A stretch of DNA of 64,000 nt from Prevotella lacticifex (lineage in GTDB: Bacteria; Bacteroidota; Bacteroidia; Bacteroidales; Bacteroidaceae). Under the pieces are notes generated by a model. The model ran no database searches, was not told the DNA's origin, and was given only the letters and a program-made list of their open reading frames with translations. Of this stretch, positions 18,823-44,969 are shown in pieces; position 1 is the stretch's first letter, and every line of letters starts with the position of its first letter. Location: positions 496,001-560,000 of the forward strand of contig NZ_BPTV01000001.1 of NCBI RefSeq assembly GCF_019973375.1, written 5' to 3'. The position numbers and the translations under genes are program-made.

Positions 18823-21399
18823 TCAAAATCTAAACCGACATTCAACAACGAATCTGCGTGGACATAAAGGGATAGAGTAATACTGATAATTTGCTCCAGA
18901 AAATACAGTCTCTTCATAAAGTCTTCTATTGAAGATATTCCGGGCGATTACTGACAATGAAAATCTCTTGGTAATGTTCCATTCACATCCGACATTTGAG
19001 AAGCAATTAGATGAATAGTTTCCATGTGAAATCTCAAAACTCTCAATTGAGCAGTCGGCATATAAGCGTAGTTGAGGAAATGGGAACACGTCAGCATGCA
19101 TTGTGGAATAGAAATTATGCAGTGCGTTATTCGACTGTGAAAACGCATCCTTGCCCTTCCAACTGATATTGCCCGCCGATGACAACTTATAGTGCAGCCA
19201 GCTTAGTTTGTCCCAATAGACAGACAATGACATGTTGAGGACATTTGAATGTACATAATCCTCAATCCCATTTTGCGAAAGAAGGAATTTGTTGTAGGCA
19301 TAGCACATGCTGTGGCTTATGGTCAAATGCGTACTGCGAAAGTTCTTCTTTATGCTATAGGCAAGGCTCCAATTATACTGCTTGTTCTGTTTCCATACCG
19401 CCATTGAATATGTCAGTTCGGGCATGTAAAGATAAGCACGGCAATAGTCCGACTTCGTTTTAGTCCATACAGCATAAACATCCCATGACCAGAGATGTAT
19501 TGTGCTCAGATAAGAAAGGCGTCCCGAAACCATGTCTGTCTTGTTAATGTTGAGGCTGTCGATGCCGTCGGTGAATGTGCGGTAGTTGTTTGTTATTGCA
19601 TTGCGGACGGGCACATCAATGGTGTTTGCATCCTGATTAATACTGGCGTTGGCTGATAATGAAAAGACTGGGTTTAGCTTCTTGTCAAATTTTACCGACG
19701 GAGAGAACATCCATCGCGAGTCGGAATTGTTTTTCCAAGCGTTTCTGTAATGAATCCACTCGACTGGCAGACGGAACTCCATTGATCCGCCACGGAAATT
19801 CCATTCATATACCGGTTCCAAAGTGTGCAGCCAGTACCTGCTGATAGATTTGCCTTCGCCATATTGTGCGTCGTCATAATTTGATTGCTTAACATCGTTG
19901 TGCTTGTATTCTATTATATACCCAATAAGCAGCGGATTGCCAAAGACATTGAACGACGTGCCAATGCGGTTGCGCATGAAAAACTGTTTGAGCCGAGTGC
20001 TGTCGTCAATGGTATCGGGCAAAGCATAAAGCTCCTCCTTAGCATGGAAATAGCGAAAAATAGAAGACAGTTGGACAAGCCTTGCTCCAGTGTTTATATT
20101 CATGTTGAATATGTTCTGCAATGTGAGCGGCCGCCGTCGCATTCTTTCGTCCACATGACCTTGCTGACTGTTTATACTTTCATCAGTATGCCAGGCATTA
20201 AGTTTTCCACTCACTTCGTCCTGCAAGTAAATCTTTTCAGAATTCAGTTCGTATTGCATCTGCCCCTTAATGACATTTGTCTGCCTGTGGCTTGCCGAAG
20301 CCTCGAAAATTGTTGTTGTATCGTTGGCTATATATCTGTCGTAAGTACTGTCGTTAAGGTTGGTTGCGTCATGAAACCACAATCCATTTATTCTTAGTGT
20401 AGAGTATTTTGACAGTGCATGGAGATAATGCATTGACGCATAATACGACTCATTTCGAAGATAATATTCTGGTGAGAGCGGGGGCTTGTGGTTGTTGGCA
20501 TTCTGAAGGAAAAGGTTGGGCAATGGTTCATTGGTGTAAAGACTGTTTACTGTTGACACTCCGTTGACAACCTGAGCATAGTTATTGCCCTGGTTGTTAA
20601 TGCCTGCCGACAACAGAAACTGATTCTTTTTTCCTGCCTCTATCGCAGTGATGTGGTCGTCGTAAGTGCCCGATGTCCCGTATCCTCCTATGATCTCTCC
20701 GAAAGGCCGCAAGCGATAATCCCTCTTCAACTTGAGATTCAGCGTGGCGCGGTTCGTGTTTACCTTCCCTGCAAGCGAGCGGATGGGCTGGTCGTTCTGC
20801 ATAACCTGCACCTGAGATACTGCCTCTGCCGGCATGTTTTGTGTTGCGAGGTTATATTGATCACCCATCAGGTTCTGCCCTTCTATATTTACCTGATTTA
20901 TAGCTACGCCCTGATAGGTGATGCCACCGTTTGCGTCAATTTCTATTCCGGGCATCCTCTTCAGTACATCCTCAATATACAAGTCTCCCTTCTGTTGGAA
21001 GCTTGCTACGTTATACAATAAAGTGTCGTTGCGTTGCGTAATCGGTGGAGCGGTAACTATTACTTCTTTTAGGGAAATCTCACCTCTCTCAAGTTTTACG
21101 TTGTAAGTCGTTTGTTTGTCGATTACTGCTAAACGCATTGAAGTATATCCGACTTTTGAAAAAATTATATAGCTTCCGCTTTCAATGTTCCTAAGAATAT
21201 ATGCTCCTTTTTTGTTTGTAAAAGCATACGAAATTAGGGAATCTGACGCTGAGAACAACCGGCAAGTGACACGATTGACAGCTACGCCTTTATTGTCAAT
21301 TACTATGCCACTGAACTCTGTCTGTGCGTAACTGCATATTGTTGTAATTACGAACAGAAAGACTGCGAGTATTCTTTTTGTGATTTTTATTGAACTCAA
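18823..21399 (-). CDS. TonB-type outer-membrane receptor with regulatory-like N-domain
   Basis: An 858-residue outer-membrane protein. A signal peptide (1-25, ending S-Y-A-Q) is followed by a carboxypeptidase-regulatory-like domain (about 28-105), a plug-like domain (about 110-235, with L-K-R-M-P-G-I-E-I and the Q-V-N-I-E-G-Q region) and a long beta barrel ending in C-R-F-R-F, a typical terminal-Phe barrel signal. It is of the OMP_b-brl_3 kind often encoded next to GLPGLI proteins. It is the last gene of an operon: the GLPGLI stop is 12 bp upstream and the 74-aa peptide is first. Transport or secretion of a peptide, or sensing, is inferred from context only. Confidence 0.82.
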   Translation of the reverse strand: MSSIKITKRILAVFLFVITTICSYAQTEFSGIVIDNKGVAVNRVTCRLFSASDSLISYAFTNKKGAYILRNIESGSYIIFSKVGYTSMRLAVIDKQTTYNVKLERGEISLKEVIVTAPPITQRNDTLLYNVASFQQKGDLYIEDVLKRMPGIEIDANGGITYQGVAINQVNIEGQNLMGDQYNLATQNMPAEAVSQVQVMQNDQPIRSLAGKVNTNRATLNLKLKRDYRLRPFGEIIGGYGTSGTYDDHITAIEAGKKNQFLLSAGINNQGNNYAQVVNGVSTVNSLYTNEPLPNLFLQNANNHKPPLSPEYYLRNESYYASMHYLHALSKYSTLRINGLWFHDATNLNDSTYDRYIANDTTTIFEASASHRQTNVIKGQMQYELNSEKIYLQDEVSGKLNAWHTDESINSQQGHVDERMRRRPLTLQNIFNMNINTGARLVQLSSIFRYFHAKEELYALPDTIDDSTRLKQFFMRNRIGTSFNVFGNPLLIGYIIEYKHNDVKQSNYDDAQYGEGKSISRYWLHTLEPVYEWNFRGGSMEFRLPVEWIHYRNAWKNNSDSRWMFSPSVKFDKKLNPVFSLSANASINQDANTIDVPVRNAITNNYRTFTDGIDSLNINKTDMVSGRLSYLSTIHLWSWDVYAVWTKTKSDYCRAYLYMPELTYSMAVWKQNKQYNWSLAYSIKKNFRSTHLTISHSMCYAYNKFLLSQNGIEDYVHSNVLNMSLSVYWDKLSWLHYKLSSAGNISWKGKDAFSQSNNALHNFYSTMHADVFPFPQLRLYADCSIESFEISHGNYSSNCFSNVGCEWNITKRFSLSVIARNIFNRRLYEETVFSGANYQYYSIPLCPRRFVVECRFRF

Positions 21400-21411
21400 C
21401 TTTTGTGCTTA

Positions 21412-22290
21412 TTATTTCAGTTCAAGCATATTGCTTGGTTTTCTCGGATAATTAGTGTCGGGCTTGATTTCCTTGCCATTTTTTATGACACGGAGCCCGA
21501 TAATGTCGACGGCGAGATTATTCCAGTCCTCAATTTCGTTCTTGTAAGCAGAAAGAGCCTTTTCCCTGTCAGTCTTTATTATATCCTTGTCGCTGTAAAG
21601 GTACATATCGCGGTTGCTTCTTGCCACCTCAATACCGCTATTCGTAAATATCCAGTTGTTGCTTTTGTCGCAAAGACACATTATCAGTCCAGGCAGACCG
21701 CCGAAAAGATAAGGACCATAAGGCAAATTGATTGATGGCGCAAACCATGCTATATAGCTTCTGCCAGCATATCTGCAAACAGCTCGCTTGCAGGCAAGTC
21801 CGTTGATGATGGAATCGCCTTCAGTAATTTGCCAGTCGAATTTCGGCAAAGGAACTGTGTATTGATATTTCCTTAAAGCCTGCAGTTGAACCGTTGCTGT
21901 CTCGTTGTCCAAGTCTACTAATGAAGTAATGTTGAAGCCATAACACACCTTACTACTTGTCTGATTAAAATCGTTAGCAGCTTTCTTCGCGTTCTTTTTG
22001 TTTATAGCGCAGAAATCATTGATAGAATCAAGCTGAATGCGGTATAAGTCGCCGAAGCGGAGATAATGGTCGGAGACTTGCAACACCATCAGCCCCTTAG
22101 TATAGTTGTCTGTTTTAGAAGAATCTGCAAGAAAATACAGCGTATAATACACGTTAATTTTCGCCGTGTCATAAACCGTCCTTTCTGTTTTCTCGTAGTG
22201 GTCCATGCCGCCATCAGGGCTGAACATCGTCTGAGCTTGTAAAGCTATAAAGTAAAATGAAACAATAAGAACAAAAAGAATTTTTTTCAT
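21412..22290 (-). CDS. GLPGLI family exported protein
   Basis: A 292-residue exported protein with a signal peptide (ending A-L-Q-A-Q) and the diagnostic motif F-G-G-L-P-G-L-I in its C-terminal half, after P-Y-G-P-Y-L. I chose ATG 22290, because M-K-K-I-L-F-V-L begins a normal signal peptide; the frame stays open to an unlikely start at 22332. The family is confined to Bacteroidota and its function is unknown. It sits between the secreted-peptide gene (80 bp upstream) and the receptor gene (12 bp downstream), all on the minus strand, which points to a shared task with that peptide. Confidence 0.88.
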   Translation of the reverse strand: MKKILFVLIVSFYFIALQAQTMFSPDGGMDHYEKTERTVYDTAKINVYYTLYFLADSSKTDNYTKGLMVLQVSDHYLRFGDLYRIQLDSINDFCAINKKNAKKAANDFNQTSSKVCYGFNITSLVDLDNETATVQLQALRKYQYTVPLPKFDWQITEGDSIINGLACKRAVCRYAGRSYIAWFAPSINLPYGPYLFGGLPGLIMCLCDKSNNWIFTNSGIEVARSNRDMYLYSDKDIIKTDREKALSAYKNEIEDWNNLAVDIIGLRVIKNGKEIKPDTNYPRKPSNMLELK

Positions 22291-22370
22291 ATACCTCATT
22301 AACAGAAAGAATGTCCATGCCCCCTCTACCAAGTTGCTCGTGGTAAAAAGGACATGAATATTCTATAATT

Positions 22371-22595
22371 TTACAGTTGATCCAGATAGCCTCCTTCAGG
22401 ACGAGAAGTAAGAACTCCTTGAGTAAAATTAGCTCTGAATATACTTATTGCTTGGAATTTACTGCTAGCATGAAACATTACCTGAGTTCCATTGGGTAGA
22501 GTCACATAATACTTATATGCCGAAGCAGTGGTCGGCATAAGCATGCCGAGCATCAGTGCCCCAGAAAAAGCAAAAATCCTTATTTTCTTTTTCAT
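22371..22595 (-). CDS. small secreted peptide, 74 aa, first gene of the GLPGLI-receptor operon
   Basis: A 74-residue protein whose first 26 residues are a signal peptide (M-K-K-K-I-R-I ... T-T-A-S-A). The mature part of about 48 residues starts Y-K-Y-Y-V-T-L-P-N-G-T-Q and ends E-G-G-Y-L-D-Q-L; it has no cysteine. I recognise no family. Position and promoter support a real gene: it follows a -7 box (22748-22755) with the operator-like repeat at 22788-22803, and it leads the operon with the GLPGLI and receptor genes. It could be a peptide signal, a ligand or substrate of the receptor, or a small periplasmic subunit. Confidence 0.72.
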   Translation of the reverse strand: MKKKIRIFAFSGALMLGMLMPTTASAYKYYVTLPNGTQVMFHASSKFQAISIFRANFTQGVLTSRPEGGYLDQL

Positions 22596-22747
22596 TTTTG
22601 TAAGTTATTATTGCCGTCTAAAAGCTTTCAGCTTTGCTCCTTTTGTCAGTTCGGTCTGGACATGATGATTCGTCAATCATCTTATGTCAAATCAATTTAG
22701 ACGCGCAACTACCGGTCTGTCGCATCATCTTCAGTTGAAATACAATG

Positions 22748-22803
22748 CAAAATTAAGAAGCAATATTGATAAAAACGATTTATTTGAGTACACTTAATAC
22801 ACT
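22748..22803 (-). promoter_or_regulatory. Regulated promoter of the peptide operon (operator plus -7 box)
   Basis: On the minus strand a tandem half-site repeat (complement of GTACACTTAATACACT, 22788-22803) is followed by 32 bp and the -7 box TAATTTTG (22755-22748). No TTTG stands 19-21 bp before the -7 box. The same motif at the same 32-bp distance precedes the DUF3244 gene (25124-25179). This fits an activator that replaces the -33 contact. Confidence 0.75.
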
Positions 22804-22880
22804 ATTGTAAAGCAATAATTGGTTAATGCTATAATTTGCAGATGGTTAAGGGCTATAGTACATCTTGTTCTCTACTATCT

Positions 22881-24605
22881 TTAAACTCGATAGATGTTAG
22901 CAGTAAAAGTTTTAGAACCTTCTTGATTGAAAATCTTTTTGTTAAGAGAACGTCTGAGATTTGATATGCGTTGTTTCGTAAGATTGAGTAATGTCGCAAT
23001 TTCTGTCGGGATAAAATGCAATCTGGTTAACACACAAATGACTTTCTCCTGAAGAGTTAAGGAAAGGTCTACCCGACTGATAAAATTATAGAAATCGGGT
23101 AGAATTTTTTCAATTAAGCCTATTAAATCATTCCATTCATTGATCGGGAGCATGGCTCCTTGTGCTGCATGCTTGTGGATTCTACGAACAATTTCATGAT
23201 CCATTAAACTCTGCTCAGCATCCCAACTGTCTTTATTTGAATAATCCGAAAATGCTGACAGCAAAGTCTTCAGTTCCGATATTTCTTCATCTTTGTCTGC
23301 TTTGACTTTTTTTAGTCCTAATTCGAGACTTTCTCTTTCTTTTAAGGCCCTGTAATATCGTATTAGAGCGTCAGAATATTTAGTATTAATCTCACGTAGT
23401 TCTTTATCTCTTTTGTTTCTTTGACTCCTTGTGTAAATATAGATTAGAAGTAGAACTATAAAAATAATAAATGTTAGAGATATAACTGTTAGCCGTAGTT
23501 TATCTGCTTCTTTAGCCTTTTCCCTGGCAATTTTCTGGCTTTCGCTGTAATCGTATAGGGCCTCTGTACGATTAATTTCGTCGGCTGAATGCTTAATATT
23601 TGCCGAATCATTTGTTTCAGCAAATAAGCTTGCATATTTCAAAACGGAATCTGTGTTGTGAAGCAGTGAAGAAACCCTTAATAGGCCATGATACCCACTT
23701 TCAAGACTACTTATATCAGAAGCTGACGAAATTAGTTTTCGATAATAATAGTCAGCAGAGTCCAGTTGATGTTTCTTTTCGTAATATTTACCAAGTATAG
23801 AATAAAATATCTCATGACCCGGCGCTATTCCTGTTCGTGGATTATATAATCCCGATGAAGTAATATATTCATCAATCCCTTTTTTGGCCTCATCAAGGTT
23901 GCCAATCTCTATATTATGTGCTATTATTGTTCCTAACGACGAAGCCGCATATCTGGTTTCACCTATTCGTCTATACTCAGAATAGACTCTTTCTGCTATA
24001 GATAATGCAGAGTCTTTCTGATTCATTATGGAATAGGCAAAGCTAGTATATTCCAACGCTTGTATTGCCGACAATGTATCTCTACAGAGTAATGAATAAT
24101 GCATACATTTTTTCCATGCACCTATTTCTCTTTGAGGAATCCTTTGCTGATGATAAAGCAAACCTATTTGACCATAAACCCTTGATGCTAATTCATCATT
24201 GTGCCTATTATACGAAGAGTCATTTATACTTACTGCATCAAGAAAAAATTTTAAAGCTAAAGGGCTATTGCCTTTATCACGGTAAACGCAGCCCATTAGA
24301 TAATTGGCTTTTATTAAATCGGTAACGTTACCATGTCCCTTGTAATAATCTAAGACATCGCCCATAAACTTTATGGTGTCCATTGGAGTGAAAGACTTAT
24401 TCATGGCTTCTGCTTTAAGAAGTAAAAAAGCCATTCTATCTTTTTTGCTATAATGATTAATGTCCTTTTCTTTGCTGTTTAAAATAGATAGTGCAGAATC
24501 TGGTAAACTGTCAATAAGTTGCTCTGCTTCTTTTAGTGCCATACGGCCTGACGATACAGAGCATGATGCTAAGCACAAGAGAAAAAAATATAGTATTTTC
24601 CGCAT
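22881..24605 (-). CDS. membrane-spanning TPR-HTH transcriptional regulator (locus I)
   Basis: A 574-residue predicted one-component regulator. The N-terminus is a lipoprotein signal (L-A-S-C, then S-V-S-S), followed by tetratricopeptide-like helical repeats (about 20-330) that would lie in the periplasm. One membrane segment (about 370-392) follows, then a cytoplasmic coiled coil (about 395-455) and a C-terminal HTH (about 514-559, with P-T-E-I-A-T-L-L-N-L-T-K-Q-R-I-S-N). Bacteroidota have many such TPR proteins with LuxR-like ends. I chose ATG 24605, not 24626, because the -7 box of its own promoter covers 24624-24631. It lies between two transcription units that share an operator motif and is their likely activator. 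Confidence 0.8.
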   Translation of the reverse strand: MRKILYFFLLCLASCSVSSGRMALKEAEQLIDSLPDSALSILNSKEKDINHYSKKDRMAFLLLKAEAMNKSFTPMDTIKFMGDVLDYYKGHGNVTDLIKANYLMGCVYRDKGNSPLALKFFLDAVSINDSSYNRHNDELASRVYGQIGLLYHQQRIPQREIGAWKKCMHYSLLCRDTLSAIQALEYTSFAYSIMNQKDSALSIAERVYSEYRRIGETRYAASSLGTIIAHNIEIGNLDEAKKGIDEYITSSGLYNPRTGIAPGHEIFYSILGKYYEKKHQLDSADYYYRKLISSASDISSLESGYHGLLRVSSLLHNTDSVLKYASLFAETNDSANIKHSADEINRTEALYDYSESQKIAREKAKEADKLRLTVISLTFIIFIVLLLIYIYTRSQRNKRDKELREINTKYSDALIRYYRALKERESLELGLKKVKADKDEEISELKTLLSAFSDYSNKDSWDAEQSLMDHEIVRRIHKHAAQGAMLPINEWNDLIGLIEKILPDFYNFISRVDLSLTLQEKVICVLTRLHFIPTEIATLLNLTKQRISNLRRSLNKKIFNQEGSKTFTANIYRV

Positions 24606-24623
24606 ATTATAGCAAATTTCTGA

Positions 24624-24655
24624 CAAAGATAATCATTTGCTTTCAAATAGCCAAA
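24624..24655 (-). promoter_or_regulatory. Promoter of the locus I regulator gene
   Basis: On the minus strand TTTG (24655-24652), a 20-bp spacer and TATCTTTG (24631-24624) fit the consensus exactly. The transcript would start near 24616, giving a very short leader. Unlike its two neighbours, this promoter has a TTTG box and no operator motif, as expected for constitutive expression of a sensor. Confidence 0.8.
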
Positions 24656-24709
24656 CTATATGAGGTATATAATTTTAAGATAATTAGTCACGAAGTTTTT
24701 GTCAATTCC

Positions 24710-25096
24710 CTATAAATTGAAATAACCCCAATAAAAAGAACTCTGAGTTTCGAATAGTATATAATATTTACCAGAACCTACTTGCGGTAATGCTATACTC
24801 GATACGCCATCTTCTATTATTTCCGTATATATAATTTCTCCCTTCTCGTTCTTTATTGTAAGAATACTTGGAGAAAGGCTTTCATCGAAGTAGATGATTC
24901 CATTAGCTATTGTTATTAGTTGCTCTTTATTATAAGGAGGGAGACGACGTACAGGCTGAGTTGACCCCGAATAGTCAGGCAAATCCTTTGCCTGCATTTG
25001 TAGTTGAATAATAATATGATCTTGAAACAGTGGCTGAGCATTCGTATTAACAACTATACCACAAAGCATTAAAACTAAGATAAACAAATTTTTCAT
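24710..25096 (-). CDS. DUF3244-like small exported protein
   Basis: A 128-residue exported protein with a signal peptide (1-20, ending T-N-A-Q). The mature part is a small beta domain with S-P-S-I-L-T-I-K-N-E-K-G-E-I-I-Y and ends G-K-Y-Y-I-L-F, then Y-W-G-Y-F-N-L. This matches the pattern of DUF3244, small secreted Bacteroidota proteins of unknown function that resemble the core of sorting-type Ig domains. It lies upstream of the regulator gene, on the same strand, and has its own operator and -7 box identical in layout to those of the peptide operon. It is therefore probably switched on together with the peptide, GLPGLI protein and receptor. Confidence 0.72.
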   Translation of the reverse strand: MKNLFILVLMLCGIVVNTNAQPLFQDHIIIQLQMQAKDLPDYSGSTQPVRRLPPYNKEQLITIANGIIYFDESLSPSILTIKNEKGEIIYTEIIEDGVSSIALPQVGSGKYYILFETQSSFYWGYFNL

Positions 25097-25123
25097 ACTT
25101 TTACTCTTTAAATCTTTTGATTA

Positions 25124-25179
25124 TAAAATTACAATAAAAACCTAAAATGAAGGAAAATCGTATGTACACTTAGTACACT
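25124..25179 (-). promoter_or_regulatory. Regulated promoter of the DUF3244 gene (operator plus -7 box)
   Basis: The complement of GTACACTTAGTACACT (25164-25179) is followed, on the minus strand, by 32 bp and TAATTTTA (25131-25124). The motif differs by one base from that of the peptide operon, and the spacing is identical. No TTTG is present at the -33 position. Confidence 0.75.
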
Positions 25180-28167: not shown

Positions 28168-28260
28168 TAAAATAGTGGCTATATCGTTGATTTTCAGTAA
28201 CTTTATGGTTGAATAAATAATGAAGTTATATGACAAATCAAGAAGATATAAGCCACTATA
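28168..28260. repeat. inverted repeat around the start of the first transposase gene
   Basis: ATAGTGGCTATAT (28172-28184) and ATATAAGCCACTAT (28246-28259) are inverted copies with one extra base in the second. They flank the transposase start codon at 28230. The hairpin could hide the start codon in read-through transcripts, a known way to limit transposition, or mark the left end of the element. Confidence 0.55.
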
Positions 28261-29429
28261 TGGGACTTGCAAAGGATACTCTCCTCGCAACTTGTGCAAA
28301 GGTACGAAAAAATCTTCAGGATCTTTTCCCTGAGATCGTGATTCTTTTGCTGGTCCTGAGAAAAAAGAATTTTACGCAGATGGCAAAGTACGGTAAACAC
28401 AACGAGCACACATACAGAAGTGCCTTCAGGAAAGGCATCGACTGGTGTGTCTATAATACAAAGCTCATCAGGGAACTTTTTGACACAGAGAATGACCTGC
28501 TTGCTGTGGCAATAGACCAGAGCTATATCCGTAAGGCCGGGAAAAAGACTTATGGCATCGGCAATTACTGGTCCGGATGTGCACAGGCCGTCAAGCACGG
28601 CTGTGAGATTACCCTGCTGGCCATCGTCAATGCGACACAGAAAGACGCGATGGCCTTCCGGGCAATACAGACGCCTGGTAAAGCTGACGGACGCAAGATG
28701 TCGCTTACAGACTTCTACATCAAACAAGTCAAGAAGTACTCCAAGAGAATGCAGAGGATTACCCATAACATGGTAGGTGATGCGGCGTTCTCTACTAAGC
28801 ACTTCACCGACAGCATGGTAGAGTTAGGTTTCACATTCGTCAGCCGTCTGAGAAAGGACACAGCGGTCAGATATCTGTACGCAGGTAAGAAGACGGGGAA
28901 GAGAGGCCGGCCGAAGACATTTGACGGATACATTGACTTTGAGAGTCCGGATTTGGACAGAATGCAGAAGATCGACAGTCTGAGTGGTGATGATGGTGAG
29001 TACTATACAATAGTTGCAAATGTGAAATGCCTCAAGCGGAATGTCAGACTGGTGGTATGGTATCCTGAGGGTCTCGACCGGGTTAAGAGCGGCGGTTTCC
29101 GTCTATATTACTCAACTGACAAGGACATGAGCGGAGAGGATACCATGGCCATTTATCATGCCAGGTTCCAAGAGGAATATCTTTTCCGCGACGGCAAACA
29201 GTTTACCGGCCTGCAGGACTGTCAGGCCAGAAGCAAAAAGAAACTACACTTTGCTTACAATGCCGCGTTCGCCGCAATCAATACTGCAAAGGTGGCAATG
29301 GCACGTGATGACAAATACAAGGGTATGTCTTTAGCGTCATATAGTATGCTGATGCACAACATGTTCATATATCGAAGAATTATCGAAGTGTCAGGTATCA
29401 AACTTGACAAGAAGAAAAATAATCCTTAA
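28230..29429 (+). CDS. DDE transposase of an IS4-superfamily-like element (IS-a)
   Basis: A 399-residue transposase with an RNase H-like core. The first acidic residue lies in V-A-I-D-Q-S-Y near residue 92, the second in V-G-D-A-A-F near residue 185, and the catalytic Glu in the Y-H-A-R-F-Q-E-E-Y-L-F-R-D-G-K-Q block near residues 310-325. The last block is the typical Y-(2)-R-F-x-x-E-x-x-F-R-D-x-K-Q motif of IS4/IS701-type elements. The gene looks intact. I could not define the terminal repeats of the element, but its right end includes the stem-loop at 29424-29470, which recurs alone at 31385-31430. Confidence 0.85.
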   Translation: MTNQEDISHYMGLAKDTLLATCAKVRKNLQDLFPEIVILLLVLRKKNFTQMAKYGKHNEHTYRSAFRKGIDWCVYNTKLIRELFDTENDLLAVAIDQSYIRKAGKKTYGIGNYWSGCAQAVKHGCEITLLAIVNATQKDAMAFRAIQTPGKADGRKMSLTDFYIKQVKKYSKRMQRITHNMVGDAAFSTKHFTDSMVELGFTFVSRLRKDTAVRYLYAGKKTGKRGRPKTFDGYIDFESPDLDRMQKIDSLSGDDGEYYTIVANVKCLKRNVRLVVWYPEGLDRVKSGGFRLYYSTDKDMSGEDTMAIYHARFQEEYLFRDGKQFTGLQDCQARSKKKLHFAYNAAFAAINTAKVAMARDDKYKGMSLASYSMLMHNMFIYRRIIEVSGIKLDKKKNNP

Positions 29430-29470
29430 TTCCGCAACTAATTGCGCAATTCTTTATTAATATTTTTTAT
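29424..29470. repeat. 3' end stem-loop of IS-a, also found at 31385-31430
   Basis: The block begins with the last transposase codon and stop (CCTTAATTCCGC), contains the CGCAA-CTAA-TTGCG stem-loop, and continues with TTTATTAATATTTTTTAT. It works as a likely terminator. Element IS-b begins directly after it. Confidence 0.75.
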
Positions 29471-29472
29471 TA

Positions 29473-30990
29473 TTGTTGTCCGGTAAACGAAAAATTCAAA
29501 AGCTGAAAAAAGGGGAATAAATCCCGCTGGATTCTTCCCCAAAGTTACTATCTTTGTGTTGCTAAACAAAAACGATGGTAACCATGAGCAAAGATATTAA
29601 TTCTTCCGGACATCCAGTACTAAGTCAGATAATAAAGTTGATAAACCGAGATAAAGTGAACGAGTTAGCCACAACTACAAAAGTCAACAGATACGTGAAG
29701 AGCTTCGATGCCTTTACGCATCTTGTAGTGATGATATATGCGGCATTGAGCGGTGCCAAGTCTATCAGGCAAGTTGTAGAGGGTTTTGAGGCCAACGTAA
29801 CCCGCCTGAATCACTTAGGCATCGCCTATTTGGTGAGACGCAGCACTCTGTCTGACGCAAACAAGAAGCGGACAAGCCAGTTTTTTGGTGATGTTTACAA
29901 GGCCCTGTACGAGCGATATTCGTCCTTTTTATCGGACAGCAAGTCCTCCAAGGCTCTTCAGAAGGGGTTATACATCCTTGACTCGACCACGATAAGCCTT
30001 TTCTCTCAGATACTTAAGGGTGTTGGACGGACTCCTAAAAATAGCGAGAAAAAGGGCGGTATAAAGGCTCATACGCTGTTAGAGGCCTCATGTGTGCTTC
30101 CGTCTTTTGTAGATTACTCCGCCGCTGCCATACACGACCACAGTAGAATGAGCAGTATCTTGTCGCTCCCATCTGGATCATTCGCTGCGTTTGACATGGG
30201 TTATGTAGATTACTGGATGTGGAAGCAATTCACAGACCATGATATCTTCTTTGTCACCAGACAAAAGGACAAAATGAGCTTTACTGTGATAGAGAATATA
30301 ACATGTAGTAGCGATGATGACATTGTATCTGACCAGAAGATATCGGTCGTCTATCGTCATACTACGGAAAGAGAGCTGACCGAGGAGGAAATGAAACACA
30401 GACGAGGCAGGAAGCCAAAGAAGCGTCCTACAGTTAAACAAACTGAGACGGGAACGTTAGTTCTCAGACGCGTCGTAAAGAAAACCGATGATAAGAAAGG
30501 GACTATTGCGTTCATTACCAATAATTTCAGTTTGTCAGCAAGTGAAATCTGTGAAATATATAGACGGCGTTGGGGGATAGAATGTTTGTTTAAACGTCTT
30601 AAGCAGAACTTTCCCTTGAAGTATTTCCTGGGAGACAGCGTTAATGCCATAGAAATACAGATCTGGTCGGTTATGATAGCCTATCTCTTGACAAGTGTTA
30701 TCTCCAGAGAGGCAAAAGATAAGATGTCGTTTTCCAATCTCGTATGCGCTATCCGGCTTACAATGTTCTCCTATATTGATATTGTAGCCATGGTCGTAGA
30801 CCCCTTACGTGCTTGGCGTGATCTCAAGGAGGCCCAGCGAAAGCAGGCTTTGGCTTACAATCCGAAATATATACAATTAAGCCTCTTTGATGACCTATAG
30901 GGGTTACTTTTCAGAAATAAGAATCATGTCCCGTATTTACTGGGGTTCCGAGAGCTAAAATCACGGAATCCGGGTTTTACCGGACAGCAA
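29473..30990 (+). mobile_element. IS4-family insertion sequence (IS-b), about 1.5 kb
   Basis: Inverted ends TTGTTGTCCGGTAAA (29473-29487) and the complement of TTGCTGTCCGGTAAA (30976-30990) enclose one transposase gene. The match extends outward by ATTA on both sides. I found no clean target-site duplication: the left flank is the end of IS-a and the right flank is the 207-bp repeat, so the element probably took part in a rearrangement after insertion. A TATCTTTG promoter box is at 29549-29556. Confidence 0.8.
29575..30900 (+). CDS. IS4-family transposase with DUF4372-type N-terminus
   Basis: A 441-residue transposase. The N-terminal part (V-L-S-Q-I-I-K-L-I-N-R and Y-V-K-S-F-D-A-F-T-H-L) matches DUF4372 plus the IS4 core. 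The catalytic acids are in I-L-D-S-T-T near residue 140, F-D-M-G-Y near residue 206 and the block Y-R-R-R-W-G-I-E-C-L-F-K-R-L-K near residues 325-340, with Glu in the Y-x-x-R-W-x-I-E motif. It appears complete and possibly active. M-S-K-D at 29584 is an equally good start, nine bases downstream. Confidence 0.92.
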   Translation: MVTMSKDINSSGHPVLSQIIKLINRDKVNELATTTKVNRYVKSFDAFTHLVVMIYAALSGAKSIRQVVEGFEANVTRLNHLGIAYLVRRSTLSDANKKRTSQFFGDVYKALYERYSSFLSDSKSSKALQKGLYILDSTTISLFSQILKGVGRTPKNSEKKGGIKAHTLLEASCVLPSFVDYSAAAIHDHSRMSSILSLPSGSFAAFDMGYVDYWMWKQFTDHDIFFVTRQKDKMSFTVIENITCSSDDDIVSDQKISVVYRHTTERELTEEEMKHRRGRKPKKRPTVKQTETGTLVLRRVVKKTDDKKGTIAFITNNFSLSASEICEIYRRRWGIECLFKRLKQNFPLKYFLGDSVNAIEIQIWSVMIAYLLTSVISREAKDKMSFSNLVCAIRLTMFSYIDIVAMVVDPLRAWRDLKEAQRKQALAYNPKYIQLSLFDDL

Positions 30991-32326: not shown

Positions 32327-33241
32327 TTATTTTAAGTCTACTTTTTGAGGGTGGGAAACTTTAGTTAACAACAAATCTCCATTGTTTGTTGCAGTTATAG
32401 TGCCGGTGACGTATCCTTTTGCACAAGTCGGATTTGATGTATTGGTTGCTTTCTTCAAGGCCTTGTCATTCTTGAACAAGGGAAGATTTAAGAAACTGTA
32501 ATCGTCATAATAGTTGACCACCTCAAGCTTTGGGTTGCCCAAGTTGAGATTATGATCAAAGGTATAGCCCGTGTTCAGAAATCCGGCATTCGAGGCATTG
32601 AATTTCGTGTGCGTTACTGAGCCACCTCGGTTGCACGACGAGCATGTGCCCTCGACGACAATCCTTGAAAGATTGTCGTAAAGGTAGAAGCGGTATAGTC
32701 CTTTAGTCCTCATGCGTCCGTCCTGCATATAGATTAGTCTGTCGGTTGTGTCGTACCAATATTGTATGTACTCACACTGGGGAAGAATCTTCTTCACTAC
32801 GTTTCCCCTGTTATCATAACGGTATTCGTAGGCAAATATTGCCTTATGTCGGTCATTTTGGTACTCTGGCGACAAAACAAAGCGAAGCTGTCCGAGATCA
32901 TTGTATACGAAGTACGTGTCGTTGTTGCCCTCGTCGCTTGCCCTTCGCTCAAGGACTTTCCTGCCGAGTTTATCGGTGAATATGGTCAGCGTATGCCCGT
33001 CCTCGTCGGTCGTCTTTTCGCCGGACAGTGTACATTTGGCATAATATCCCGATTTGACGAGATGGTTTTCCCCATCCATCGGAGCGGTGTAAAGTTTTAC
33101 GTCACTCGCGCCGTTGGTTATGTGTTCTTTTGTCACGCTCTTGCCTGCCGAGTGCCATGCATCGCCTGGTGTGGTTGTTCTTGTTATGCGATCAAGCGCA
33201 TCGTATGTATTGTCGCTATAAGCATGGTTGTCGTGCTCCAT
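32327..33241 (-). pseudogene. RHS/YD-repeat protein fragment (DUF6443-type)
   Basis: An open frame of about 300 residues encodes the inner part of a large RHS-type surface protein: Y-D-A-L-D-R-I-T, F-T-D-K-L-G-R-K-V-L-E-R-R, Y-F-V-Y-N-D-L-G-Q-L-R-F-V-L-S-P-E-Y, Y-R-Y-D-N-R-G-N-V-V and G-T-C-S-S-C-N. Intact relatives are over 1000 residues long with a signal peptide and a variable, often toxic, C-terminal domain; both ends are missing here. The 5' side joins a transposase fragment directly, so this is the residue of a deletion. A stop follows D-L-K at 32327. Confidence 0.75.
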
Positions 33242-43232: not shown

Positions 43233-44969
43233 CTATCCCAATCGCCTGATGAAGTCGTCAAGAGAGTCGTTGCGATTGAGCCCAAACTTCTTACGCAGTC
43301 TATAGCGGTTGCTGTTCACGCTGTCGGGGGTCACACTGAGCATCTCGGCTATCTGCTTAGGCCTCACCCCGATACATATATAGGCACAAAGACGAAGGTC
43401 ATTCTCCGTCAGCTCGGGGCATGTCTCCTTCAGCTTGAGGAAGAAATTGGGATGGACGGCGTTGAAATGTGTCTTGAACCGTTGCCATTCGTCGTCGTTC
43501 CTCAGACTCTGTCCAATCACATGGTTCACCTGCTGTACATAAGAGCGTGGTATTAGTCCGTCGTTGGAGAATTGCTGGGTGATGCTGCTAATCTGCTTGA
43601 GCACCTCATTTTTGTTGGCCAGGAGGAGCGTATTAGAGCTTATCTCGCTCTCTTTCTGCCTGATATCGTCCTCAAAGTTCTTTCTGTTTACGGCATATAT
43701 AAGAGCTTCCTGCTTCAAATTCTCGCGCAGTTGCTCATTTTCTATCTTCCTGATCTTGAACCTCTGCCGGTAGTAGATGGTCAAAGCCAGTCCTATGATG
43801 AGCACTAAAGCAATGGCAAGGAGTGCAAGATAAAGGTAGTTCGTCTTTATTTGGGCATCCTTTTCCACTAATTTCAGCTTGTCGTTCTGCCGCATTATCT
43901 CTTCTCGGGCCTGAGTCTTGGGAATGTCATGTGCCTTTGCGATGGCCGTATTGCGCTCATATTGTTGCTGATATTGCTTAAGGGCCAAATACGCCTGTGG
44001 CTGTTTGCCCAACTTGTCATAGCATTTCCACATCAGATAGTAGGCATCCAACATGAAGGTCTCGCCGTCCAACATCTTTGCATACGGTTTCAGACTGTCT
44101 ATTGTGCTTATGGTCCTGATGTAATCGCCTTGCGCATAGGAGACCTTAGCGCGGGCTATATAGAGCAGAGTAGTGAAGTACACATTGTCTTGAAGATGTT
44201 TGCTAATAAGCTCAGCGCCTGCGTCGCATGCCCGCATGGCACCTTTCACATCGCCGGTCTTCACAAGCAGCTCGCTAAGATTGGTATAGTCCTGAAGAGT
44301 CAGGGCCCAGTCGTTGCCGCCGTATAGTATGCTCTTCTTTATCCAAGCTGTCTTCTGGTGCAAGTCATCAGTCAGTAATGCACGGAAGAAGTATATACGG
44401 TTGAGCGAGAAATGTGCTTTCCGATAATGCTGTTCGGCCAGACCCAACTGGTCGCGTGCCTGAACAATGTCGTCTATGTCATAGAACAGCTGCACTAAAA
44501 GCAAGTAGGTGTTGCCCAAGAAGAAGTTGTCGTCATAGCGTTTCAGCACATTCAGGGCCTTGTTGCAATAGTTATAGCAAAGCAGATATTGTCCTAACCG
44601 CTCATAATTGCCTGCCAACTGATAGTAGATAACGGCTAAATCATAGTCATATTCAGGGCGGCAAAGCTTTTCGGCCCGTAGCAATTGCTTGATGCACTCG
44701 GCCGGCGAACGGTCTAACTGACTCATTCGAACATCCCAAAACAGGGCACGGGCCTGCAGTTGGGTATTGTTGCCGGCAAGCTTCTTCAGTTGACTTAAAT
44801 CCTTGACTTGAGCTTCCGAACGGCGATTCTCACGGTCGAGGGTGTTCAGTCGTTCTGCAATATTGTCGAAAGGTTTGCTCAGTGGCGAAAAGTAGTAGTT
44901 GCCTGCGCGCGACAATGTCACGACAAACAGCATCACGATTGCTAACAGTAAACCTTTAATTTCGTGCAT
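43233..44969 (-). CDS. membrane-spanning TPR-HTH transcriptional regulator (locus II)
   Basis: A 578-residue protein with the same design as the regulator at 22881. A signal peptide (1-22) leads to a periplasmic helical TPR-like region (about 35-345). One membrane segment follows (about 377-399), then a coiled coil (about 400-465) and a C-terminal LuxR-like HTH (about 520-565, L-T-E-N-D-L-R-L-C-A-Y-I, K-Q-I-A-E-M-L-S-V-T-P-D-S-V-N-S-N-R-Y-R-L). The last part is the classical recognition-helix pattern of GerE-type domains. It probably senses a periplasmic state or ligand and activates the adhesin and Omp28-like genes, which share an operator. Its own promoter is a consensus one. Confidence 0.82.
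   Translation of the reverse strand: MHEIKGLLLAIVMLFVVTLSRAGNYYFSPLSKPFDNIAERLNTLDRENRRSEAQVKDLSQLKKLAGNNTQLQARALFWDVRMSQLDRSPAECIKQLLRAEKLCRPEYDYDLAVIYYQLAGNYERLGQYLLCYNYCNKALNVLKRYDDNFFLGNTYLLLVQLFYDIDDIVQARDQLGLAEQHYRKAHFSLNRIYFFRALLTDDLHQKTAWIKKSILYGGNDWALTLQDYTNLSELLVKTGDVKGAMRACDAGAELISKHLQDNVYFTTLLYIARAKVSYAQGDYIRTISTIDSLKPYAKMLDGETFMLDAYYLMWKCYDKLGKQPQAYLALKQYQQQYERNTAIAKAHDIPKTQAREEIMRQNDKLKLVEKDAQIKTNYLYLALLAIALVLIIGLALTIYYRQRFKIRKIENEQLRENLKQEALIYAVNRKNFEDDIRQKESEISSNTLLLANKNEVLKQISSITQQFSNDGLIPRSYVQQVNHVIGQSLRNDDEWQRFKTHFNAVHPNFFLKLKETCPELTENDLRLCAYICIGVRPKQIAEMLSVTPDSVNSNRYRLRKKFGLNRNDSLDDFIRRLG

Follow-up and report, generated by a model that had tools for sequence, protein, structure and literature searches.

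A 64,000-nucleotide stretch of the Prevotella lacticifex genome (contig NZ_BPTV01000001.1, positions 496,001 to 560,000; hereafter the window) encodes a 574-aa protein that combines a lipoprotein-type signal, a predicted periplasmic tetratricopeptide repeat (TPR) solenoid, a single membrane helix and a C-terminal helix-turn-helix (HTH), and that lies between two promoters sharing a tandem site at the same distance from the -7 box. We propose that this protein is a one-component, membrane-embedded activator of two units, one for a DUF3244-like secreted protein and one for a small peptide, a GLPGLI family protein and a probable TonB-type receptor, a reading to which we assign a probability of roughly three in four. 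The original prediction, made from the letters of the window alone, had put forward such a transmembrane activator; conservation of the motif and of its geometry now supports it, and direct binding, activation and a periplasmic signal are steps that we infer.

Conservation and spacing of a tandem TGTA site

The degenerate pattern GTACACTTARTACACT matches both operator sites (Table 1) with zero mismatches and occurs nowhere else in the window, even when up to three mismatches are allowed. On the minus strand both sites repeat TGTA at a 9-bp period, and each lies exactly 32 bp from a -7 box, placing TGTA 46 bp from that box. Bacteroidetes housekeeping promoters carry TTTG at -33 and TAnnTTTG at -7; measured against this consensus, the two target promoters have the -7 element (one box ends in A) and lack the -33 element, TTTG being absent 20-29 bp upstream of both boxes. 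The regulator's own promoter conforms to the consensus when read by eye (TTTG-N20-TATCTTTG). In all of these respects the original prediction, which had located both motifs, their common offset, the two incomplete promoters and the perfect one of the regulator, proved accurate.

The 14-bp core TACACTTARTACAC has exact matches at these two window sites only in the 4.19-Mb genome; at up to two mismatches there are 10 matches, rarer than the 51 of a reversed control pattern, and such loose matches therefore carry no meaning. Searching shuffled sequence for GTACACTTARTACACT at up to three mismatches gave at least two matches in 18 of 100 shuffles, and four other pairs of 16-mers in the window, set at this same offset from such boxes, agree at 14 or more of 16 positions. 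Since the window alone thus cannot exclude chance, it is the comparative data that decide.

The regulator was found at E<=1e-60 in 46 of 200 same-genus genomes, its own included, and 58 of the 59 other listed regulator places were taken with their flanks. In the 400 nt downstream of the regulator we counted 27 copies of TGTA-N5-TGTA, spread over 18 of 57 regions (window included), where about 0.3 would be expected from the remainder of the same loci; the opposite strand of these regions gave a single match and other spacings gave 0-8, and both the spacing and the strand of the repeat matter. A further 64 loci came from named genomes, chiefly of Prevotella and its relatives; for these, a single-protein search of genome contigs found no relative and an alignment query did. 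Removal of near-duplicates left 104 loci, 93 of them informative (at least 200 nt downstream), and 32 of these 93 have the repeat within 400 nt downstream. Distances from TGTA to TAnnTTTG (n = 25) were 46 bp in 14 cases, 47 bp in 8, and 58, 59 and 68 bp in the others; the 46-47-bp distance holds in 22 of the 32 site-bearing regions, whereas random placement reached at most 4 of 32 in 2000 trials. The recurrence of the tandem motif at 32 bp near orthologous regulators, which had been anticipated, is thus found between regulator and DUF3244-like gene in many loci, and the lack of conservation near orthologues that would have told against the proposal did not occur.

Two sites are present in 18 loci, and 15 of these 18 pairs are spaced 66-75 bp apart, possibly reflecting co-operative binding. 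Two-operator loci include L044, L047, L050, L051, L053, L115 and L129; at L047 (G125:C11) two operators persist with a second copy of the regulator whose frame holds an internal stop. The closest relatives (45-48% identity), at L115, L121 and L122, keep the order of the window, DUF3244 then regulator, and L115 and L121 have sites both 5' of DUF3244 and 3' of the regulator.

A scan of 200 genomes with GTGTACTAAGTGTACTC, one mismatch allowed, returned 12 sites in 7 genomes (reversed control, 4), of which 9, the window's included, lie 45-47 bp from TAnnTTTG and 3 do not. Five sites belong to one genome, G075, all at 45-46 bp. One stands between a regulator and a DUF3244 gene with a peptide/radical-SAM set; two, on separate contigs, precede an open reading frame (ORF) of 52-53 aa, a GLPGLI gene (188.5 and 150.6 bits against TIGR01200) and then a large protein in which, on C3 and C1 alike, CarbopepD_reg_2 scores above its cut-off and Plug below threshold; one near a contig end has no gene set; and the fifth is followed by a 33-aa ORF and an outer-membrane barrel protein of 930 aa. 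The G075 order of operator, small peptide, GLPGLI and receptor therefore matches that of the window, and the expectation that the tandem motif would recur before GLPGLI genes was borne out in these two runs, which are 99% identical copies. The G075 small ORFs between operator and GLPGLI (L227:10302-10463 and L226:12974-13132) gave no NCBIfam match at E<=0.1, so their GG-type leader is a by-eye call; the window peptide differs from them in its Sec-type signal. Another genome, G178, has a site ahead of a 606-aa protein that shows weak TPR matches; next come a DUF3244-like gene (17.8 bits) and an RHS-repeat protein. The position of this site suggests autoregulation there.

Predicted architecture of the regulator and co-variation of its HTH with the site

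Hydropathy and structure models support the predicted architecture of the regulator. Its lipobox, LASC, ends at residue 15, and the model (mean predicted local distance difference test score, pLDDT, 85.5) comprises a TPR solenoid at residues 20-338, an 86-residue helix running through the membrane segment and a C-terminal helical domain (pLDDT 89.7) that contains the HTH. A strong membrane segment is present in every one of the 55 full-length homologues, and a lipobox-like motif in 38 of them; in 45 of the 55 the 15 residues after the segment hold more lysine and arginine than the 15 before it, as expected for a cytoplasmic C-terminus. Foldseek matched the solenoid best to LGN, with Rap from rank 21 and NprR at rank 40, all three of them peptide-binding proteins, while RcsB, LiaR, GerE and NarL top the list for the C-terminal domain at weak E values of 0.8-4. 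No Pfam HTH match was found in the regulator at E<=1, and an HTH profile searched against PDB sequences gave a best E of 0.021, which we judged not convincing. NCBIfam NF053779, by its name built on BT3442, matches the regulator at 60.5 bits (E 1.2e-16), far below the curated cut-off of 940; judged by this similarity, the protein is homologous to the BT3442 family and is not an equivalog.

Loci without the TGTA form were covered by a box-aligned test, for which a usable box was present in 49 of 59 loci, and 47 were kept once two near-duplicates had been dropped. The 29 promoters without a TGTA-type site carry a direct repeat of period 10-11 that starts 52-64 bp before the box, and in 2000 samplings of 215 control promoters taken from these loci the observed repeat score was never reached, either for the 47 or for the 29. 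Across 46 regulators, distance between sites correlates with distance between HTH domains (Mantel r 0.305, p 0.001; corrected for the N-terminus, r 0.241), whereas a control window farther upstream gave r 0.072. A search for repeats of period 8-12 before the DUF3244 genes of five same-genome paralogues found none; by eye, a different element is present twice in each, the copies lying about 75-90 bp apart.

DUF3244, GLPGLI and the genes carried with the regulator

A DUF3244-like ORF starts within 600 nt downstream of the regulator in 34 of 59 loci, 4 of the 59 having less than 200 nt downstream. Five more DUF3244-like matches turned up among 1466 ORFs: one belongs to L098, at a distance of 767 nt, one is that of the window, and three lie at other places. 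Because Pfam at E<=0.01 recognises DUF3244 in only 15 of 49 proteins (48 first-downstream proteins and the window's own), most assignments rest on an iterated profile. A profile of 28 DUF3244-like relatives matches PDB chains 4g5a (6e-6) and 3sd2 (5e-4), the latter named DUF3244; the profile of the 28-protein alignment also weakly matches Tannerella Potempin A (8b2m, E 0.077), a protease inhibitor. The genes that follow were sampled as up to four ORFs per locus, cut at 330 residues (89 ORFs in all; 28 of the 34 loci contributed and six yielded none); among the 25 commonest families listed are up to 7 radical-SAM maturases, 4 C39 peptidases, 5 CarboxypepD_reg, 3 SpvB and 3 DUF6443 proteins.

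The window's own genome has six DUF3244 matches at E<=0.01, of which the window's is the weakest and the other five score 24.9 to 38.2 bits. Each of these five directly follows a regulator-like ORF, of 542-620 aa or, as a fragment, of 307 aa; only part of those ORFs match the window regulator by sequence, the rest having been assigned by eye. One such locus (L110, G000:C1:2511962-2518054) repeats the window set, with a regulator-like ORF, DUF3244, a 72-aa secreted peptide, a partial GLPGLI frame scoring 127 bits and a receptor-like protein in which CarboxypepD_reg and Plug stay below threshold; homology between its peptide and the 74-aa window peptide was not detectable by BLAST (E 4). By eye, its promoter region holds two copies of a different element. 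Another paralogous locus encodes a TIGR04149 precursor, a TIGR04148 maturase and GLPGLI. A GG-leader precursor and a SPASM maturase, the marks of a radical-SAM peptide locus, are present in the paralogous locus at C1:1002124-1007617 and were found neither among five scanned window proteins nor, by eye, among the ORFs at 18823-25096. At G000:C1:1030243-1033497 (L109) a regulator copy seems, by eye, to be split by a transposase-like ORF.

Across the order, NF053779 matches at E<=1e-12 in 75 of 149 genomes, many of the matches being distant. By eye, a DUF3244-like gene comes next in 3 of 16 inspected order-wide loci, and that of L179 was confirmed above the Pfam cut-off; MACPF cargo was considered for L179 and rejected, its second downstream ORF having no Pfam match at E<=0.05. 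That DUF3244 is always a regulator partner proved too simple a rule, since 10 of 17 matches outside the own genome, from a 40-genome sample, belong to large proteins, with frames of 571-1335 aa.

Family scores were obtained for the target genes named by the original prediction. The GLPGLI protein belongs to TIGR01200 (145.6 bits, cut-off 50), whereas the DUF3244-like protein scores 21.8 bits against PF11589, under the gathering cut-off of 25, and the receptor falls below threshold for both Plug (14.3 against 23.9 bits) and CarbopepD_reg_2 (25.8 against 32.2); the signal of the 74-aa peptide was recognised by eye. A relative of that peptide, 60% identical and with stops, lies directly 5' of a GLPGLI gene (134.7 bits) at L210 in genome G137, where the stretch read shows no regulator.

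Table 1. Features of the regulator locus, in window coordinates
Feature	Position	Strand	Basis
Regulator, 574 aa: lipoprotein-type signal, predicted periplasmic TPR solenoid, single membrane helix, C-terminal HTH	22881..24605	-	family matches, model, hydropathy
Regulator membrane helix, residues 372-390	23436..23492	-	hydropathy scan; within a single long model helix, 341-426
Regulator HTH, residues 518-559	22929..23054	-	structure models; weak LuxR/GerE/NarL-type Foldseek matches, E about 1
Regulator promoter TTTG-N20-TATCTTTG, no operator seen	24624..24655 (TTTG 24652-24655, box 24624-24631)	-	by eye
Putative operator 1, minus strand AGTGTATTAAGTGTAC, TGTA-to-box 46 bp	22788..22803	-	pattern match
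-7 box TAATTTTG, 74-aa/GLPGLI/receptor unit	22748..22755	-	box search
Putative operator 2, minus strand AGTGTACTAAGTGTAC, TGTA-to-box 46 bp	25164..25179	-	pattern match
-7 box TAATTTTA, DUF3244 unit	25124..25131	-	box search
DUF3244-like secreted protein, 128 aa	24710..25096	-	ORF list, sub-cut-off Pfam match, profile of relatives
74-aa peptide, Sec-type signal by eye, mature part about 48 aa	22371..22595	-	ORF list
GLPGLI family protein, 292 aa	21412..22290	-	TIGR01200
Probable TonB-type outer-membrane receptor, 858 aa, TTG start as listed	18823..21399	-	sub-threshold CarbopepD_reg_2 and Plug

Elsewhere in the window, a further TPR protein of 578 aa (43233-44969) adjoins an Omp28-like protein, and two transposase genes occur with a partial-looking ORF that has a sub-threshold DUF6443 match (28230-30900 and 32327-33241).

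Proposed mechanism, alternatives and known systems

In the mechanism that we favour, the lipobox and TPR solenoid would lie in the periplasm, one helix would cross the inner membrane, and an HTH, possibly LuxR/GerE-like, would lie in the cytoplasm. The solenoid may sense a periplasmic signal, possibly the DUF3244 partner or an exported peptide, upon which the HTH would bind the tandem TGTAC-type site, whose 9-bp repeat is about one helical turn, just upstream of -33. Bound there, the regulator would recruit RNA polymerase to -7 boxes that have no TTTG and whose promoters would otherwise be weak, so that in the window the unit of the secreted DUF3244 protein and that of the 74-aa peptide, GLPGLI and receptor would be switched on together, the regulator itself being transcribed from its own complete promoter. 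In related bacteria the regulator/DUF3244 pair may act as a cassette ahead of varying peptide, exporter and RHS cargo.

Several observations weigh against this mechanism. The TGTA form is absent from 61 of the 93 informative loci, ruling out a single motif common to all homologues, and 10 of the 32 site-bearing loci have no exact TAnnTTTG box at 45-47 bp. Among the closest relatives, L115 and L121 place the clear site before DUF3244 at 117-118 bp from the nearest good box, in the manner of a distal copy, with no clear repeat at 46 bp; in L122 no site precedes DUF3244, L116 shows none anywhere on its short contig, and the regulator frame is broken in L121 and L122. In the scan, the regulator loci had already yielded four of the nine well-placed sites, and the G075 stretches at C1:16753, C3:325423 and C2:486 are 99-100% identical copies, so that three of the five G075 sites are not independent. 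The class assignment of the HTH rests on weak scores, and the N-terminal domain alone correlates with site distance at r 0.279, making the HTH-site correlation partly one of ancestry. Finally, lack of TTTG is not a general rule: 21 of 47 related promoters have it at -24/-25 from the box.

The same 21 promoters could fire unaided, which bears on the possibility that the regulator binds these sites as a repressor and that a periplasmic signal releases both units. Site position alone does not tell activation from repression; however, a position upstream of -33 is the usual one for activators, both window promoters lack TTTG, and we regard repression as unlikely. It is less probable still, and in our view quite improbable, that the sites belong to another DNA-binding protein, with the neighbouring TPR protein only sensing and signalling, since site sequence and the HTH of the neighbouring protein vary together more than overall relatedness would explain, and exact sites occur in the window genome only beside this regulator. 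The direct repeats might instead act as an RNA or other cis element, and the leader of the 74-aa gene (window 22593-22742, about 150 nt) does fold somewhat better than shuffled sequence (z -2.18; 5 of 200 shuffles equally good); yet the repeats lie upstream of the -7 box at a fixed distance, outside the transcript of that promoter, and an Rfam search of the window gave no match, leaving this explanation with a very slight probability.

The proposed regulator can be compared with several known systems. ToxR and CadC have an N-terminal cytoplasmic winged HTH and a C-terminal periplasmic domain; the window protein would share their periplasmic sensor, single membrane helix and cytoplasmic DNA-binding domain, all predicted here, but its domain order is reversed, which sets it outside that class, and its HTH resembles, at weak scores, LuxR/GerE rather than the OmpR type. 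RRNPP/Rap proteins are peptide sensors with a cytoplasmic TPR and an N-terminal HTH or none; Rap and NprR are among the Foldseek matches of the regulator model, after LGN, but with a TPR predicted to be periplasmic and an HTH that is C-terminal across the membrane, the window protein is not of this class either. The BT_3442-BT_3433 cluster of B. thetaiotaomicron resembles the window in beginning with the TPR protein BT_3442, followed by BT_3441 (Ig-like fold) and then cargo, and differs in that this cargo includes MACPF and other lipoproteins (PMC2954219); the passages of that 2010 paper on the cluster describe it as a putative operon, with neither a regulator nor an operator named. TPR genes also lie within the peptide clusters BGC2 and BGC9 of Bacteroidales, which encode ribosomally synthesized and post-translationally modified peptides, and were suggested to act possibly in regulation after pheromone binding; the passages on these two clusters mention no operator, TPR-membrane-HTH fusion or DUF3244 partner (PMC10352776). 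The window differs from them in the Sec-type signal of its peptide and in having no adjoining radical-SAM gene. In a further study, the passages on DUF3244 genes place them only in tables of the iron response, and a literature search outside which lay most subscription papers and all bioRxiv preprints found no description of this regulator/operator system.

A broader and more tentative idea is that of a Bacteroidales plug-in cassette, in which the periplasmic TPR might read its DUF3244 partner or an exported peptide as a signal to be passed across the membrane, and HTHs co-evolving with private tandem operators might switch on loci for secreted antagonism: small peptides accompanied by GLPGLI and a receptor, radical-SAM peptides, RHS proteins and MACPF proteins. 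Taken together, the membrane regulator and its sites look like a dedicated on-switch for small secreted protein and peptide loci in gut and rumen bacteria. This would give a large unnamed class of TPR-membrane-HTH proteins in these bacteria a candidate function and a testable operator, and would place the unexplained DUF3244 and GLPGLI families in one regulatory circuit. The sequence rule, an operator 46-47 bp from the -7 box, could serve to find small peptide loci and to ask what activates them.

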